Shown: positions 1,230 to 23,981 of the stretch, piece after piece
How the letters are laid out: every line of letters starts with the position of its first letter
Numbering within the stretch: position 1 is the stretch's first letter
Made by a program: the position numbers and the translations under genes
NCBI GenBank assembly: GCA_030690945.1
Contig: JAUYFM010000009.1
Location: forward strand, 1-35,483
Direction: 5' to 3'
Source: Smithellaceae bacterium
GTDB taxonomy: Bacteria > Desulfobacterota > Syntrophia > Syntrophales > Smithellaceae
Length of the DNA stretch: 35,483 bases
The notes under the pieces: model-generated
Database searches by the model: none
Told to the model about the DNA's origin: nothing
What the model saw: only the letters and a program-made list of their open reading frames with translations

Positions 1230-2891
1230 TTAATCCTTAAATATTGCGCCTGTTGACGCGGACGTGACCATTTTCGCGTAGCGCGCCAGATAGCCGGTGG
1301 TGATGGCCGGTTGACGCGGTTTTAATATTTTCCTGCGTTTATCCAGTTCGGCATCGCTGACTTTCAGATTTAGTTTTTTGGCCGGAATATCGATAGCGAT
1401 AATGTCGCCTTCCTTCACGAGAGCAATTGGACCACCTTCCGCCGCTTCCGGCGAGATATGGCCGATAGCCGCGCCCTGTGTGCCGCCGCTGAAACGTCCG
1501 TCAGTGAGCAACGCAACGGTCTTATCCAAACCCATGCCGACAATCGCCGAGGTGGGCGAAAGCATCTCGCGCATACCCGGGCCGCCTTTGGGACCTTCAT
1601 AGCGGATAACCACAATGTCACCGCCTTTAATCTTTCCACCGAGAATCGCCGCAATGGCGTCGTCTTCGCAATCGAAAACGCGGGCCTTGCCTTCATTTAT
1701 TTGCATGGCTTGAGCCACCGCGGATTGTTTCACCACGCCGCCGTCCGGTGCGAGGTTGCCGTGCAAAATAGCAATACCGCCTTGTTTGGAATACGGATTG
1801 TTTAAGGGTCGGATGACATCATCATTCAAAACGCGGGCGCTTTTTAAATTTGCCCCTACTGTTTTTCCCGATACGGTCATCGCCTTTTCATCAATGATGC
1901 CCAGCGGGCTTATCGTCTTCATCACCGCTTGAATGCCGCCCGCCGAATCCAGATCTTCGATATGGTGATGACCGGCTGGACTCAATTTGCAGATGTTCGG
2001 TGTTTTCTCGCTGATTTTATTGAAGAGATCTAAATCAAGTTTGATGCCTGCTTCGTGAGCAATGGCTGGAATGTGCAAGACGGTATTGGTGGAACAACCC
2101 AGCGCCATATCGACAGCCATGGCGTTTTTAAACGCAGCGAGCGTCGCAATATCGCGTGGCTTGACGCCCTTTTTAAACAAATCCATAATTTTCATGCCCG
2201 CGTATTTAGCCAGGCGATGACGCGCGGCAAGCACTGCCGGAATCGTGCCGTGCCCGGGAAGCCCGAGCCCCAGCGCTTCGGTAACGCAGTTCATAGAGTT
2301 GGCGGTGTACATGCCGGAGCAGGACCCGCAGCCGGGACAGGCGCAGTCTTCCAACTGCTGCAAGTCAGAGGATGTCATCTTTTTGGCTTTCACCGCGCCG
2401 ACGCCTTCAAACACCGAGATGAGGTCAACGGCTTTGCCCTGAAACTTCCCCGCGAGCATCGGTCCGCCGCTGATGAAAATGCAGGGAATGTTGAGCCTGA
2501 GCGCCGCCATCAGCATGCCGGGAATAATCTTGTCGCAATTGGGAATAAAAACGAGCGCGTCAAACGGATGAGCCATGGCCATGATTTCAATGGAATCGGC
2601 GATCAGCTCGCGGCTGGCGAGTGAATATTTCATGCCCGCATGCCCCATGGCAATGCCGTCGCAAACACCGATGACCGGAAATTCCACCGGCGTGCCGCCC
2701 GTCATGCGGATTCCCGCCTTAACATCCTGGGTAATTAAGTCCAGATGGATATGTCCGGGGATAATTTCATTGGCGGAATTAACTACGCCGATCAACGGAC
2801 GCGCAATTTCTTCATCAGTATAGCCCATGGCTTTAAAGAGCGACCGGTGCGGCGCCCGCTCCAATCCTTTTTTCATGAGATCGCTTCTCAT
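1230..2891 (-). CDS. ilvD: Dihydroxy-acid dehydratase
   Basis: 553 residues, full length for IlvD. It dehydrates 2,3-dihydroxy-isovalerate and -methylvalerate to the 2-keto acids of valine and isoleucine synthesis in the cytoplasm, using an iron-sulfur cluster and Mg. The N-terminus [19 protein letters not shown] is canonical. Cluster and active-site signatures are visible: [12 protein letters not shown] in the N-terminal third, [17 protein letters not shown] in the middle, and [24 protein letters not shown] near the C-terminus. It is the last gene of the ilvBNCD operon, separated from ilvC by 191 bases containing a MITE-like repeat. The start at 2891 is preceded by AGGAGATAACC, a good ribosome-binding site. 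Confidence 0.98.
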
Positions 2892-3082: not shown

Positions 3083-4138
3083 TTATTTCTTTCTTTTCTC
3101 CGGTCTCAGCGATCGTACGGCTACGCCCGCCTGCCACAGTTCGGATTCGCGCATTTCCTTGAGTTCGGCATTGAGCTTTTCCTTGTAGTCCGGCGCGCTG
3201 TTCACCCGCAGAACCACTTCGGTTTCCTTGCCGATTTCAACGGAATTATAGAGTTCGGCGAAGACAGGCTCCACCGCTTTGCGGAATTTGTGCCGCCAGT
3301 CCAGAGCGCCGCGCTGCGCGGTAGCCGAGCAGTTGGCGTACATCCAGTCCATGCCGTTTTCGCCGACCAGGCGGATCAGGCTCTGCGTGAGTTCCTCCAC
3401 CGTCTCGTTGAAGGCTTCACTGGGTGTGTGGCCGTGACGCCTAAGTTCGGCGTATTGCGCCTCCATCATGCCCGCAAGCGCACCCATGAGAACACCGCGT
3501 TCGCCGGTCAGGTCACTGTAAACTTCCATCTGGAAAGTCGTCGGGAAAAGAAAACCCGAGCCGATGGCGATACCCAAAGCCAGCGTGCGTTCCATCGCGC
3601 GGCCGGTTGCATCCTGATGAACAGCAAAGCTGGAGTTGATACCGCTGCCGTCAACAAAATTACGGCGGACGCTGGTTCCCGATCCCTTGGGCGCGACCAG
3701 AATCACATCGACAAAATCAGGCGGAATGACACCTGTCTGTTCTTTATAAACGATGGAAAAGCCGTGCGAGAAGTAGAGCGCATCGCCTTTTTTCAGGTGC
3801 GGCTTGACTTTCGGCCAGAGGATCATCTGCGCCGCGTCGGAAACCAGATATTGAATAATGGTTGCTTTCTCCACCGCTTCTTCAATCGGGAAAAGCGTCT
3901 GGCCGGGCACCCAGCCGTCGGCGATGGCCTTATCCCAATATACTTTATCTTCCTTGGTCTGGCCAATAATGACGTTGACGCCGTTGTCTTTCATATTAAA
4001 AGCCTGCGCGGGACCTTGAACCCCATAACCCAGCACCGCGATCACTTCTTTTTTAAGGACTTCCTGTGCTTTTTTCACCGTGAACTCTTCTGAGGTCACC
4101 ACATCTTCCATCGTACCACCAAAATTAATTTTTGCCAT
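3083..4138 (-). CDS. ilvC: Ketol-acid reductoisomerase
   Basis: 351 residues from the ATG at 4138 (MAKINFGGTMEDVV), which is preceded by a G-rich ribosome-binding site (AGGGGGG); a GTG 24 bases upstream is in frame but would put that site inside the gene. The enzyme isomerises and reduces acetolactate and acetohydroxybutyrate with NAD(P)H. Visible signatures are the dinucleotide-binding GYGVQGPAQA (about residues 39-48), SHGFSIVY, APKGSGTSVRR, and the metal/substrate region SDLTGERG and EELTQSL. The segment MYANCSATAQRGALDW and the C-terminal ELWQAGVAVRSLRPE match the Bacteroidetes and fungal Ilv5-type branch rather than the short proteobacterial class I form (recognition from memory). It lies 52 bases after ilvN. 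Confidence 0.97.
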   Translation of the reverse strand: MAKINFGGTMEDVVTSEEFTVKKAQEVLKKEVIAVLGYGVQGPAQAFNMKDNGVNVIIGQTKEDKVYWDKAIADGWVPGQTLFPIEEAVEKATIIQYLVSDAAQMILWPKVKPHLKKGDALYFSHGFSIVYKEQTGVIPPDFVDVILVAPKGSGTSVRRNFVDGSGINSSFAVHQDATGRAMERTLALGIAIGSGFLFPTTFQMEVYSDLTGERGVLMGALAGMMEAQYAELRRHGHTPSEAFNETVEELTQSLIRLVGENGMDWMYANCSATAQRGALDWRHKFRKAVEPVFAELYNSVEIGKETEVVLRVNSAPDYKEKLNAELKEMRESELWQAGVAVRSLRPEKRKK

Positions 4139-4190
4139 AACCCCCCCTGTTCTTAATATCACTATTGGTTATTATTGTTGAATGTTTATT

Positions 4191-4676
4191 TTAATCTTCC
4201 AATTTCAAGGCGATGAGGCCTGTTCTGGTTATATCCGTAATGCCAAGCGGCTCCAGGCGTGCCAGAGAAAAATCGATTTGTGTTTTATCTCCCGTTATTT
4301 CGACAATAACATACTTGTCGCCCGACACTATTACTTTCCATTTATTCATGTCAATAGCCTTTTTTACCGGTTCTGAATTCTGGGCCGTCAGATTCAGCCG
4401 GACCAGAACCATTTCGCGATAGATCGATTCAACATTGGTCAGGTCATTGACGGAAATGACATCAACCAGTCTTTGCAGCTGATTTTCAATCCGGGTGACG
4501 GTCGCTTGTGACCCCGCGGTGGTCATCACAATTTTCGATATGTCGTTTTGTGTTGTCGTATTCACGCAAAGGCTATCAATGTTATAGCCTTTGCCGCCTA
4601 ATGTGCCGGCAATTCTGGCCAGCACATCGGGTTTATTGTGCACCAGAATTGAAATGACATGCGCCTTTTTTTCCAT
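4191..4676 (-). CDS. ilvN: Acetolactate synthase small (regulatory) subunit
   Basis: 161 residues, the usual length of IlvN/IlvH. An N-terminal ACT domain (HVISILVHNKPDVLARIAG, then a GYNIDSL loop) is expected to bind valine for feedback inhibition, followed by the ALS small-subunit C-terminal domain ending in GLIALKLED. It partners with the IlvB catalytic subunit. It starts 27 bases after ilvB behind AAGGAAAAAAGGA, so the two genes are almost certainly co-transcribed and produced together. Confidence 0.96.
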   Translation of the reverse strand: MEKKAHVISILVHNKPDVLARIAGTLGGKGYNIDSLCVNTTTQNDISKIVMTTAGSQATVTRIENQLQRLVDVISVNDLTNVESIYREMVLVRLNLTAQNSEPVKKAIDMNKWKVIVSGDKYVIVEITGDKTQIDFSLARLEPLGITDITRTGLIALKLED

Positions 4677-4703: not shown

Positions 4704-6407
4704 TTAATTGATTATTTCTCTCGATCCCAGCGTCATCTGGCTGATCGACTCGCCCGGACGCACCATGGGATAGACGCATTCCTCTCGTGACACACGGAAA
4801 TCCATCAATACGGGCTTGTTGACGGAAAGTCCTTGCTTCAACACAGCTTCCACTTCGGACGGCTTGGTTGCGCGCAGGCCGATGATGCCAAAAGCCTCCG
4901 CCAGCTTCACGAAATCCGGCGCGTAAGTCATATCGGTATGTGAATAGCGTTTTTCATAAAACAATTCCTGCCACTGACGCACCATTCCCAGATAACCGTT
5001 ATTTAACAGGACAATCTTCACGGCGATATTATACTGGGCGGCCGTCGCCAGTTCTTGAATATTCATCTGGATGCTGCCGTCGCCGGCGATATCCACCACG
5101 TGCTTATCAGGGAAAGCGCATTTGACGCCGATAGCCGCGGGCAGTCCAAACCCCATGGTGCCTAAGCCCCCGGAAGAAATAAAAGAATTAGGACGATCAA
5201 ACTGGAAAAACTGCGCCGCCCACATCTGATTCTGGCCGACTTCCGTTGTGATCAGGGCATCGCCGCAGGTGAGTTTATGCAGCGTTTCGATAACGTATTG
5301 CGGTTTGATGACCTCGCCGTTCTGACAGTAAGTCAGGGGTACTTTTTCACGCCATTCGTCAATTTCGTCAAGCCACGTTTTCCTTGATACAGTATCCTGC
5401 GCATAGTGATGTTCTTCGAGAAAGCGCAGGAGATCCTTGAGCGTCGCTTTGGTATCGCCGATAATCGGCAGATCAACGGTAACATTTTTATTAATGGAAG
5501 AGGGATCAATATCAATATGGACAATCTTGGCGTTGGCGGCAAAAGTTTCAATCGTGCCGGTCACGCGGTCGTCGAACCTGACGCCCACGGCCAGCAGGAA
5601 ATCGCAGTGGCTGACCGCCATATTTGCGTAATACGTGCCGTGCATGCCCAGCATGCCCAGCCACAAGCCATCACTGCCCGGAAACGACCCGAGGCCCATC
5701 AGTGTGCCGGTCACGGGAATCTGGTATTTTCGCGACAAATGGGTTAATTCTTCCGATGCCTTGCCGAGGATGACGCCGCCGCCGGTCATAATTAATGGTT
5801 TTTTAGCGGCTTGGAGCATATCAAACACTTTGGCCATTTTTTTGGGCGCCGGTTTGTACGCTACTTCATAATTGCGGAATTTGACATTAGCCGGATCATA
5901 ATCGGTTTGCGTAGCCATGACGTCTTTGGGCAAATCAACCAGCACCGGTCCCGGTCTTCCGGAGCGGGCGATATGAAAAGCTTCTTTAATCGTCGAGGCC
6001 AGTTCTTCAATGTTGCGCACCAGAAAATTGTGTTTGGTGCAGGGCCGCGTGATGCCGGTAATATCGCATTCCTGAAACGCATCGTTCCCGATGAGGCCGG
6101 TCGGCACCTGTCCGGTAAAAACCACCAGGGGTATGGAATCCATATTCGCCGTGGCAATGCCGGTGACGGTATTGGTGGCGCCCGGGCCGGATGTTACCAG
6201 ACAGACACCGACCTTACCGGTTGCGCGTGCGTAGCCGTCGGCGGCATGCACCGCGCCCTGTTCGTGACGCACTAAAATATGTTTGAGGTCGCTTTTATAT
6301 AGTTGATCATAAATGTCCAGGACCGTCCCGCCCGGATAGCCAAAGATAATGTCAACATTTTCTTCTTTAAGCACCTCCAGCAGGATTTGCGTGCCTTTCA
6401 ACTTCAT
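4704..6407 (-). CDS. ilvB: Acetolactate synthase large (catalytic) subunit
   Basis: 567 residues, full length for the ThDP-dependent acetohydroxyacid synthase. It condenses pyruvate with a second pyruvate or 2-ketobutyrate, the committed step to Val/Leu/Ile. The catalytic Glu lies in VRHEQGAVHAADGYAR (Glu49). The PP domain carries GDGSIQMNIQEL followed by LLNNGYLGMVRQWQ, the ThDP/Mg motif, and a FAD-binding middle domain is present. The start at 6407 has GGAGGAGT upstream (ATGATGGAGGAGTC). It is the first structural gene of the operon and sits behind the leader-peptide attenuator at 6468-6663. Confidence 0.98.
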   Translation of the reverse strand: MKLKGTQILLEVLKEENVDIIFGYPGGTVLDIYDQLYKSDLKHILVRHEQGAVHAADGYARATGKVGVCLVTSGPGATNTVTGIATANMDSIPLVVFTGQVPTGLIGNDAFQECDITGITRPCTKHNFLVRNIEELASTIKEAFHIARSGRPGPVLVDLPKDVMATQTDYDPANVKFRNYEVAYKPAPKKMAKVFDMLQAAKKPLIMTGGGVILGKASEELTHLSRKYQIPVTGTLMGLGSFPGSDGLWLGMLGMHGTYYANMAVSHCDFLLAVGVRFDDRVTGTIETFAANAKIVHIDIDPSSINKNVTVDLPIIGDTKATLKDLLRFLEEHHYAQDTVSRKTWLDEIDEWREKVPLTYCQNGEVIKPQYVIETLHKLTCGDALITTEVGQNQMWAAQFFQFDRPNSFISSGGLGTMGFGLPAAIGVKCAFPDKHVVDIAGDGSIQMNIQELATAAQYNIAVKIVLLNNGYLGMVRQWQELFYEKRYSHTDMTYAPDFVKLAEAFGIIGLRATKPSEVEAVLKQGLSVNKPVLMDFRVSREECVYPMVRPGESISQMTLGSREIIN

Positions 6408-6467
6408 GTTTTTGACTCCTCCATCATATTTTACTTATCAATTGTATCCAACAGCCTTTAAAAACTG

Positions 6468-6504
6468 AAAAAGCCGCCAGTTTCTTTTAGGAAAAAGCGG
6501 CTTT
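6468..6504 (-). terminator. Second terminator hairpin of the ilvB attenuator (arms C:D)
   Basis: On the minus strand AAAGCCGC (6504 to 6497) pairs with GCGGCTTT (6477 to 6470) across a 19-base loop and is followed by a run of five T. It lies just before ilvB. Its 5' arm (C) can also pair perfectly with the 3' arm of the first terminator, so the two hairpins compete. Confidence 0.7.
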
Positions 6505-6510
6505 GTGTCT

Positions 6511-6548
6511 ATAAAAACAAAGCCGCGGGCTTTTCGGGGCCCGCGGCT
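6511..6548 (-). terminator. First terminator hairpin of the ilvB attenuator (arms A:B)
   Basis: Minus-strand AGCCGCGGGC (6548 to 6539) pairs perfectly with GCCCGCGGCT (6530 to 6521) across an 8-base loop and is followed by TTGTTTTTAT. This is a very stable GC-rich intrinsic terminator placed 14 bases after the leader peptide stop codon, the normal location of a ribosome-mediated attenuator. Confidence 0.9.
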
Positions 6549-6561
6549 GATATCTTTTTTC

Positions 6562-6663
6562 TTAAAGATACCGGGCGGCAGACCCCATAAGTACGACTAC
6601 TACGAGCAATCTTACGTAGGCTTGTATTTGAATTCTGCCACTGTCTAAATCTTTAAGAAACAT
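6562..6663 (-). CDS. ilvB operon leader peptide (attenuator peptide)
   Basis: A 33-codon ORF too short for most gene callers. It starts at ATG 6663 behind AGGAAG and ends TAA at 6562. It contains 13 branched-chain residues, including Ile11, Ile13, Val17 and the run LLVVVVL at residues 19-25 (codons TTG CTC GTA GTA GTC GTA CTT). It stops 14 bases before the first terminator stem. The layout matches the known ilv leader peptides, in which ribosome stalling at Val/Leu/Ile codons when the charged tRNAs are scarce prevents termination. Function of the peptide itself is not expected. Confidence 0.88.
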   Translation of the reverse strand: MFLKDLDSGRIQIQAYVRLLVVVVLMGSAARYL

Positions 6664-6689
6664 AATGACTTCCTGATAAATTTGTCTTT

Positions 6690-6718
6690 CTTTTAACGAA
6701 AAAAGCCCCGCTTGTCAA
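6690..6718 (-). promoter_or_regulatory. Predicted sigma-70 promoter of the ilv operon
   Basis: Minus-strand TTGACA (6718-6713), a 17-base spacer, then TAAAAG (6695-6690). Transcription would start about 20 bases before the leader ATG. The -35 is perfect; the -10 is weaker, but the same TTGACA/TAAAAG pair also precedes the tRNA gene at 23907. Confidence 0.6.
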
Positions 6719-23906: not shown

Positions 23907-23981
23907 GCGGGCGTAATTCAGTGGTAGAATGTCAGCTTCCCAAGCTGGACGTCGCCGGTTCGAGCCCGGTCGCCCGCTCCA
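23907..23981 (+). tRNA. tRNA-Gly (anticodon CCC), CCA encoded
   Basis: A full cloverleaf: acceptor GCGGGCG/CGCCCGC, D-arm with AGTGGTAGAAT, anticodon stem TCAGC/GCTGG around loop TTCCCAA (anticodon CCC, reads GGG), T-arm CCGGTTCGAGCCCGG, discriminator T and encoded CCA. It is very close to E. coli glyU in pattern. It is the first gene upstream of rimP, the position taken by metY (initiator tRNA) in E. coli. A small AGCCTG/CAGGCT hairpin at 23988-24003 follows. Confidence 0.97.

Follow-up and report, generated by a model that had tools for sequence, protein, structure and literature searches.

The ilvBNCD locus and its leader

The window, a stretch of 35,483 nucleotides from a Smithellaceae bacterium, carries the genes ilvB, ilvN, ilvC and ilvD on its minus strand (Table 1). 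The three best named relatives of the window ilvB are one Syntrophaceae and two Smithella records, with 83-87% identity, which places the genome in the Syntrophales. Upstream of the leader are a penicillin-binding-protein gene and tatC. Past ilvD, a minus-strand open reading frame at 1-672, which by eye is SAM-dependent methyltransferase-like, runs off the end of the window.

Between the promoter and ilvB there is a short open reading frame, followed by a series of mutually complementary segments. A first-pass annotation, made from the letters of the sequence, had described a promoter, a 33-codon peptide with the LLVVVVL run and four arms, A to D, and all of these are found where it had placed them. 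The single exception to conservation of the -35 sequence in the window's family, L033, has Ns at that place. The -10 sequence is weak, and a generic promoter scan did not call the TTGACA/TTAAAA promoter. Below both hairpins the promoter scan gave a single consensus match (6450-6423, 9/12). Such matches are at chance level (1 found, 0.9 expected), and a downstream promoter at this site was therefore dropped.

Table 1. Features of the ilvBNCD locus and of its leader, with window coordinates
Feature	Position	Strand	Basis
Promoter -35, TTGACA	6713..6718	-	Sequence; precedes the leader in 31/32 leaders of the window's family
Probable promoter -10, TTAAAA (16-bp spacer, weak consensus match)	6691..6696	-	Position relative to the conserved -35
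Leader peptide open reading frame, MFLKDLDSGRIQIQAYVRLLVVVVLMGSAARYL (33 aa; LLVVVVL = residues 19-25)	6562..6663	-	Sequence
Segment O, GTGGCAGA (leader codons 8-10; candidate protector of P)	6634..6641	-	8-bp O:P in the minimum-energy 5' UTR fold
Control codons LLVVVVL (Val codons 6603-6592)	6589..6609	-	Sequence; length of the Val run varies in relatives
Segment P, GGGGTCTGCCGC (predicted antiterminator 5' arm within leader codons)	6575..6586	-	Folding
Hairpin H (spans the leader stop codon; enclosed by P:A)	6549..6572	-	Folding
Segment A (partner P or B)	6536..6548	-	Folding, pair counts
Predicted terminator 1, A:B hairpin and T-rich tract	6511..6548	-	Folding, terminator scan
Segment B (partner A or C)	6518..6530	-	Folding, pair counts
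Segment C (partner B or D)	6497..6505	-	Folding, pair counts
Probable terminator 2, C:D hairpin and T tract	6466..6505	-	Fold and alignment
Segment D	6470..6477	-	Pair counts; alignment
ilvB ribosome-binding site, GGAGGAG	6416..6422	-	Sequence
ilvB, acetolactate synthase large subunit	4704..6407	-	Pfam TPP enzyme domains
ilvN, small subunit	4191..4676	-	Pfam ALS_ss_C and ACT domains
ilvC, ketol-acid reductoisomerase	3083..4162	-	Pfam KARI_N/KARI_C
ilvD, dihydroxy-acid dehydratase	1230..2891	-	Pfam ILVD_EDD_N/ILV_EDD_C

Predicted RNA structures and competing states

The pairings that had been proposed between neighbouring arms are all found in the sequence. A (here 6548-6539) and B form 10 perfect pairs followed by TTTGTTTTTAT, B and C form 9 perfect pairs, and C and D form 8 pairs followed by a T run. 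A terminator scan reports three sites in 401 bp versus 0.4 in shuffles; these are two overlapping minus-strand calls of A:B and the plus-strand image of A:B. C:D exceeds the loop limit of the scan, and termination there is predicted from the fold and from alignment A2, in which D reads GCGGCTTT in 40/40 rows.

The first-pass annotation had also placed a segment that can hold A within the leader codons. A competing upstream segment does exist, but the proposed GCCCG:CGGGC register is wrong: the pairing is longer and lies in another register. P is GGGGTCTGC-C-GC (6586-6575) and its partner is GC-C-GCGGGCCCC (6547-6536); they form 11 pairs that enclose hairpin H, whose arms are 6572-6564 and 6557-6549. 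A sixth segment, O, had been overlooked in the earlier set of A to D and the A-holder. O pairs with the part of P at 6582-6575 (TCTGCCGC) over 8 bp, one of which is G-U. We take O:P, P:A and A:B to be the counterparts of pairings 1:2, 2:3 and 3:4 in the trp leader, with O resembling segment 1.

No family of Rfam release 15, T-box and leader families included, matches the leader at gathering score. At that score the window as a whole yields just one match, a tRNA at 23907, and 16 matches at E up to 10 are all far under their thresholds. Membership of an Rfam cis-regulatory family was rejected, as nothing came near threshold at that E-value.

Folding predicts two competing states. The local hairpin energies are -28.1 (P:A), -22.0 (A:B), -14.7 (B:C) and -14.8 kcal/mol (C:D). 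In a fold of 6591-6466, without O, the combination P:A with B:C (-53.1 kcal/mol) is isoenergetic with A:B and C:D (-53.0 kcal/mol); before B is made, P:A folds at -29.6 kcal/mol. With P hidden the predicted fold is A:B with C:D. When O is free, in a fold of 6690-6466, the terminating state O:P with A:B and C:D is favoured (-76.2 vs -72.6 kcal/mol for P:A with B:C). For the whole leader, the minimum-energy form is O:P before A is made and P:A before B is made.

These properties suggest that the leader is a ribosome-mediated transcription attenuator of ilvBNCD that senses charged tRNA-Val and sets two intrinsic terminators through an O-P-A-B-C-D relay, a reading whose probability we put at roughly three in four. 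The leader peptide probably senses tRNA-Leu as well. As judged from its sequence, the leader has the marks of a leader-peptide attenuator: a run of codons for the end product, a predicted terminator before the first gene, and P:A and A:B pairings that would exclude each other. In the folding model, O:P would protect P and promote termination in the absence of a stalled ribosome, both in the window and in most ilv leaders. The central idea of the first-pass annotation, in which a Val/Leu peptide, an upstream competitor for A and a B:C pairing that would disable both terminators precede ilvB, is supported by the folding and by the conservation described below.

The proposed relay would work as follows. 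When Val is short, the ribosome would stall at the Val codons, which separate O from P, and O could then not hold P. P would then pair with A, and B, left free, would capture C once C is made, leaving D without a partner; neither terminator would form and ilvB would be transcribed. When Val is plentiful, the ribosome would run to the stop codon (6564-6562) and cover P, and A:B would form terminator 1. Without a ribosome, O:P would form and again allow A:B. A polymerase that reads through A:B would meet C:D, the probable terminator 2.

Ribosome reach is taken as 12-15 nt from the ribosomal P site (PMC3641672). By coordinates, a stall at the first Val codons would leave segment P free and keep O and P apart, whereas at the last Val codon the ribosome would just reach the start of P. 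With the ribosome at the stop codon, its edge would lie near 6552, just short of A. If one ribosome position sets two terminators, the off state may be tighter than with one terminator, with the on state kept.

Relation to known attenuators

Attenuators of proteobacteria were reportedly the subject of comparative work by Vitreschak and co-workers in 2004. The enteric leader-peptide attenuators include trp, his, leu, thr, ilvGMEDA, ilvBN and pheA (PMC1183508). Like these, the window has a peptide rich in the regulating amino acid and mutually exclusive antiterminator and terminator; unlike them, it adds the C:D hairpin and its T tract, tied to A:B by B:C (PMC1183508).

The his attenuator of Escherichia coli and relatives has stems AB, CD and EF, with DE as an alternative, and is likewise built of more than four segments that can pair in different ways (PMC10989985). 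Only EF is described there with uridines after it, whereas in the window T tracts follow both A:B and C:D (PMC10989985). An attenuator of the his type, in which the last hairpin alone terminates, was rejected for the window, as both of its hairpins carry T tracts.

The rimP-leader of some Gammaproteobacteria resembles the window leader in having two tandem terminators with inverse stem motifs in a single leader, and possibly an antiterminator (PMC2965389). It differs in gene and in signal: no leader peptide is described there, and a protein is proposed, with NusA as the best candidate (PMC2965389). The Salmonella mgtCBR leader likewise has several attenuation steps, one of them by ribosome stalling, but with two open reading frames, two signals (ATP and proline) and stems unlike intrinsic terminators; the window has one open reading frame and two linked hairpins of intrinsic type (PMC3641672). 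An mgtCBR type was rejected on the finding of a single leader open reading frame with stall codons upstream of both hairpins. The ilvBNC attenuator of Corynebacterium glutamicum precedes homologous genes and has a terminator that overlaps its antiterminator; it is actinobacterial, and its model has three hairpins, namely terminator, antiterminator and antiantiterminator (PMC11857589). An ilvB motif of Leptospira is also on record (PMC8632094).

Among the matches listed from the open-licence literature, as judged by title, abstract or selected passages, there is no description of linked tandem terminators behind one leader peptide, nor of attenuators of Syntrophales. Attenuation by a ribosome is known; on the best reading of the sequences, the two linked terminators in one relay appear to be the new part.

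Conservation among ilvB leaders

The window's family was searched in 35 genomes, and in two of these (G002 and G018) no close ilvB was found. All 33 ilvB loci read from the family (L001-L033) have P and the A-B-C-D layout, as do 5 of the 17 loci of the first set that come from elsewhere in the order (L034, L035, L038, L039, L045). In the remaining 12 (L036, L037, L040-L044, L046-L050) the leader is, by eye, simpler, with one terminator and a Val/Ile run. Across the 50 loci L001-L050, the search for a leader peptide with a V/I/L run succeeded in 48; L049 falls outside the leader selection rule. L010 lacks most of the leader open reading frame, including the start codon and first half, with the Val codons, P and both hairpins kept, which may reflect a deletion or an assembly fault.

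A further 40 ilv-type loci, from 13 family codes, were read. Counting both sets, the layout was read before ilvB in 16 of the order's 21 family codes. An acetolactate synthase frame follows directly, by eye, in 35 of the 40. The first long frame of L185 is ilvC-like, L181, L183, L190 and L197 are not cleanly readable, and the downstream frame of L195, which was checked, has a TPP-enzyme N domain. At the level of genomes, the ilv leader model R1 has matches in 145/155 order genomes, a second model R2, of trp leaders, in 147/155, and phylum-wide model matches occur in 115/297 genomes, order genomes included; since these tallies take in any leader class and weak matches, and E-values are rough, the counts given here rest on the loci read. 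Models of these arms served to collect the order and phylum sets, a procedure that biases them towards agreement.

In four genomes a double leader precedes a second, 45-46% identical ilvB nearby. These paired ilvB paralogues (G049:C26, G051:C228, G053:C22 and G055:C149) have a double-terminator leader before one copy and a single-terminator Val/Ile leader before the other.

Individual leaders bear on the RNA role of the segments. P and H are kept as RNA: over P the reading frame is shifted in L026, L027 and L029, and in L005 and L006 the leader peptide ends before the GTATCTT arm of H. Both arms of P:A change together in L039 (GGGGAC:GTCCCC) and in L045 (GGGTGCC:GGCGCCC). Among the 40 further loci, L195 carries CTCTT where B and D otherwise read CTTT, and AAGAG in C. 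All seven counted B:C pairs are present in 37/40 of these loci, and L193 and L206 have a single B:C mismatch each. L209 has no second hairpin, and C:D of L216 has only 6/8 pairs.

Pair counts are based on A2, an alignment of 40 distinct ilv leaders. P:A, H and B:C pairs together are 91.0% standard, versus 40-56% when slid, with one P:A position (C opposite C) that is never paired; B:C is standard in 95.8% of cells. Changes on both sides are seen in 5/7 pairs of H, 2/11 of A:B, 1/13 of P:A, 1/9 of B:C and 0/8 of C:D, and the one B:C pair concerned, the outermost, is unpaired in 8/39 rows with letters. Covariation of B:C in relatives, on which the first-pass annotation had let its model depend, is thus weak in ilvB leaders and is better in the trpE and Phe leaders described below. 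Within ilvB leaders alone, B:C is kept but is hardly tested by covariation.

In the window a T run (6496-6492) adjoins arm C. Four to six T's directly after C are found in 31/34 leaders like those of the window's family; two more have the T run after one C, and L032 has TTCTT. B:C, a GC-rich stem of -14.7 kcal/mol, may therefore itself terminate. It would then be a third terminator in this family, with partial termination even when the ribosome stalls, a possibility compatible with the relay elsewhere. However, the T run after C is missing from all six other A2 rows and from all 40 ilv loci read in other families, and inspection of the trp and Phe alignments by eye shows none there either. In the window's family the run can pair with GAAA inside C:D and lengthen that stem. 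Termination at B:C is considered rather improbable, and a role of B:C in disarming the two terminators is preferred.

Trp and Phe leaders of the order

Some R1 matches are Trp-run leaders of trpE. One of them is in the window's own genome, which thus has a second double-terminator leader, L161 (G000:C65:4742-4861), with the Trp-run peptide MKKIAVTLNLNNGWWWNLTGRISRR. The gene downstream encodes a TrpE N-terminal domain. In all, 96 trpE leaders from 15 family codes were aligned. Each of the 96 encodes WW or W.W within a short frame, and the R2 model does not include the Trp codons. Phe runs such as FFSFFGFF mark a third class, which comprises 22 loci from 10 family codes, its spread being known only from loci matched by the ilv and trp models (L173, L235, L238, L336-L341, L343-L353, L175 and L335). 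By eye, 19 of the 22 precede a periplasmic-binding-protein gene of branched-chain-transporter type, and L175 and L335 precede an AMP-binding acyl-CoA ligase gene; L341 is followed by no readable frame. A Pfam/NCBIfam check of one example per gene type gave Peripla_BP_6 and AMP-binding. Given these genes, the Phe signal may control uptake or aromatic catabolism.

The presence of three types of stall codon bears on a quite different explanation, in which the double hairpin would chiefly serve to stabilise the ilvB mRNA, or to stop read-through out of the penicillin-binding-protein gene, the leader peptide being incidental. Hairpins at mRNA 5' ends can protect mRNA, and 27 bp separate the end of the upstream gene (6746) from the -35 sequence. 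However, the stall codons fit the downstream gene, with Val before ilvB, Trp before trpE and Phe before the binding-protein and ligase genes, and this explanation is judged highly improbable.

B:C is paired in the ilv, trp and Phe leaders with different cores, GCCGC in ilv leaders and mostly GCCGTG in trp leaders. It folds more stably than dinucleotide shuffles, at z < -2, in 39/40 ilv, 95/96 trp and 22/22 Phe leaders. In the trp leaders, B:C is standard in 98.0% of cells versus 38-56% when slid. Site 1 is A-U in 68 leaders, G-U in 19 and G-C in 7, and another site is U-G in 82, U-A in 6 and C-G in 6. The first-site bases in A, B, C and D are TATA (56 leaders), TATG (12), TGTA (11), CGTA (8), TGCG (4) and CGCG (2); single rows have CATA, which breaks A:B, TAGC, which breaks B:C, and CGCA, which breaks C:D. 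A in segment B never occurs together with C in segment C (0/70), a combination that A:B and C:D would allow and that B:C would forbid. The Phe leaders show a B:C series like that of trp, and their P:A is paired in 20-22 of 22 leaders at each of 12 sites. Pooling of the trp and Phe leaders gives a Fisher's p of 2e-5, without correction for descent and omitting the TAGC row (A in B, G in C). On a tree of TrpE N-terminal sequences (87/96 loci), the B base needs 13 changes and the key C base only three, too few to give a test of coupling any power.

It may be asked whether B:C has any function. An ordinary attenuator, P:A versus A:B, with C:D as a plain back-up terminator would suffice if the likeness of the two hairpins came from duplication of terminator 1. 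A does resemble C, and B resembles D; C:D is lost or damaged with A:B kept in L209 and L216, and B:C shows almost no covariation within ilvB leaders. However, the linked arms remain complementary across the ilv, trp and Phe classes although their cores differ. Furthermore, trp A:B pairs in the stretch shared with B:C hardly vary (at five sites 0-2 of 96 leaders depart, and one further site there runs A-U, G-U, G-C in step with C), whereas the three A:B pairs beyond the overlap vary, with 31, 27 and 12 departures. In Phe leaders, the CGTG stretch of A lies outside the P:A register used and yet is kept. A functionless B:C is thus regarded as unlikely, and a relay in which B:C links the two terminators is the preferred reading.

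The classes differ in energetics. The on-minus-off difference without O has a mean of -1.5 in the 40 ilv leaders, 8.4 in trp and 3.6 in Phe leaders, and the two states lie within 5 kcal/mol in 33/40 ilv, 19/96 trp and 13/22 Phe leaders. The close balance is thus a trait of the ilv class and not of the platform. The best duplex of upstream sequence with P has z < -2 in 23/40 ilv, 7/22 Phe and 1/96 trp leaders, and z < -1 in 35/40 and 14/22 of the first two classes; in the stretch tested in trp leaders the O signal is absent (z < -1 in 9/96). In several trp rows Trp codons can pair with CCGCC of P, with no excess over shuffles.

Taken as a whole, the window somewhat more probably than otherwise carries one copy of an attenuator platform that is re-used in Syntrophales and found also in other Desulfobacterota. 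Such a platform would be a six-segment relay in which one stalled ribosome disarms two terminators, the stall codons (Val, Trp or Phe) are swapped according to the gene, and the four linked arms co-evolve through G-U intermediates. It would be a natural case of RNA segments forced to change together, and would show how overlapping alternative helices evolve. The layout common to Val, Trp and Phe leaders in one order provides an annotation rule for amino acid regulation in Syntrophales.

Loci outside the order

Among 76 named ilvB loci of the phylum (L055-L130), a strong match to the ilv model is found only in L055 (69.5 bits, next 22.6), and a crude terminator scan of the same loci finds a GCCGCGG-type hairpin only in L055. 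Loci read outside the order number 24. They lie before trpE-, trpD-, DAHP-synthase- and DhnA-aldolase-like genes, one trpB-like gene and one ilvB-like gene, four of these gene types having been checked by domain search and the others made by eye. B:C has 9/9 pairs in 19/24 loci, at least 8 in 22/24 and 7/9 in L376 and L377, an agreement due partly to selection, since these loci are the best-scoring matches of the trp model. L370 has A-T-A-T across the four arms at a core site that is G-C-G-C in the remaining 23.

In L364, L366 and L372, from other Desulfobacterota, Trp-run leaders with linked double hairpins precede DAHP-synthase-like genes (L364 checked). From their sequences, these leaders would bring the aromatic entry step within the range of the platform. 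L373 and L378 have a comparable double hairpin in front of a DhnA-type aldolase gene (L373 checked), with Phe/Tyr-rich short frames upstream.
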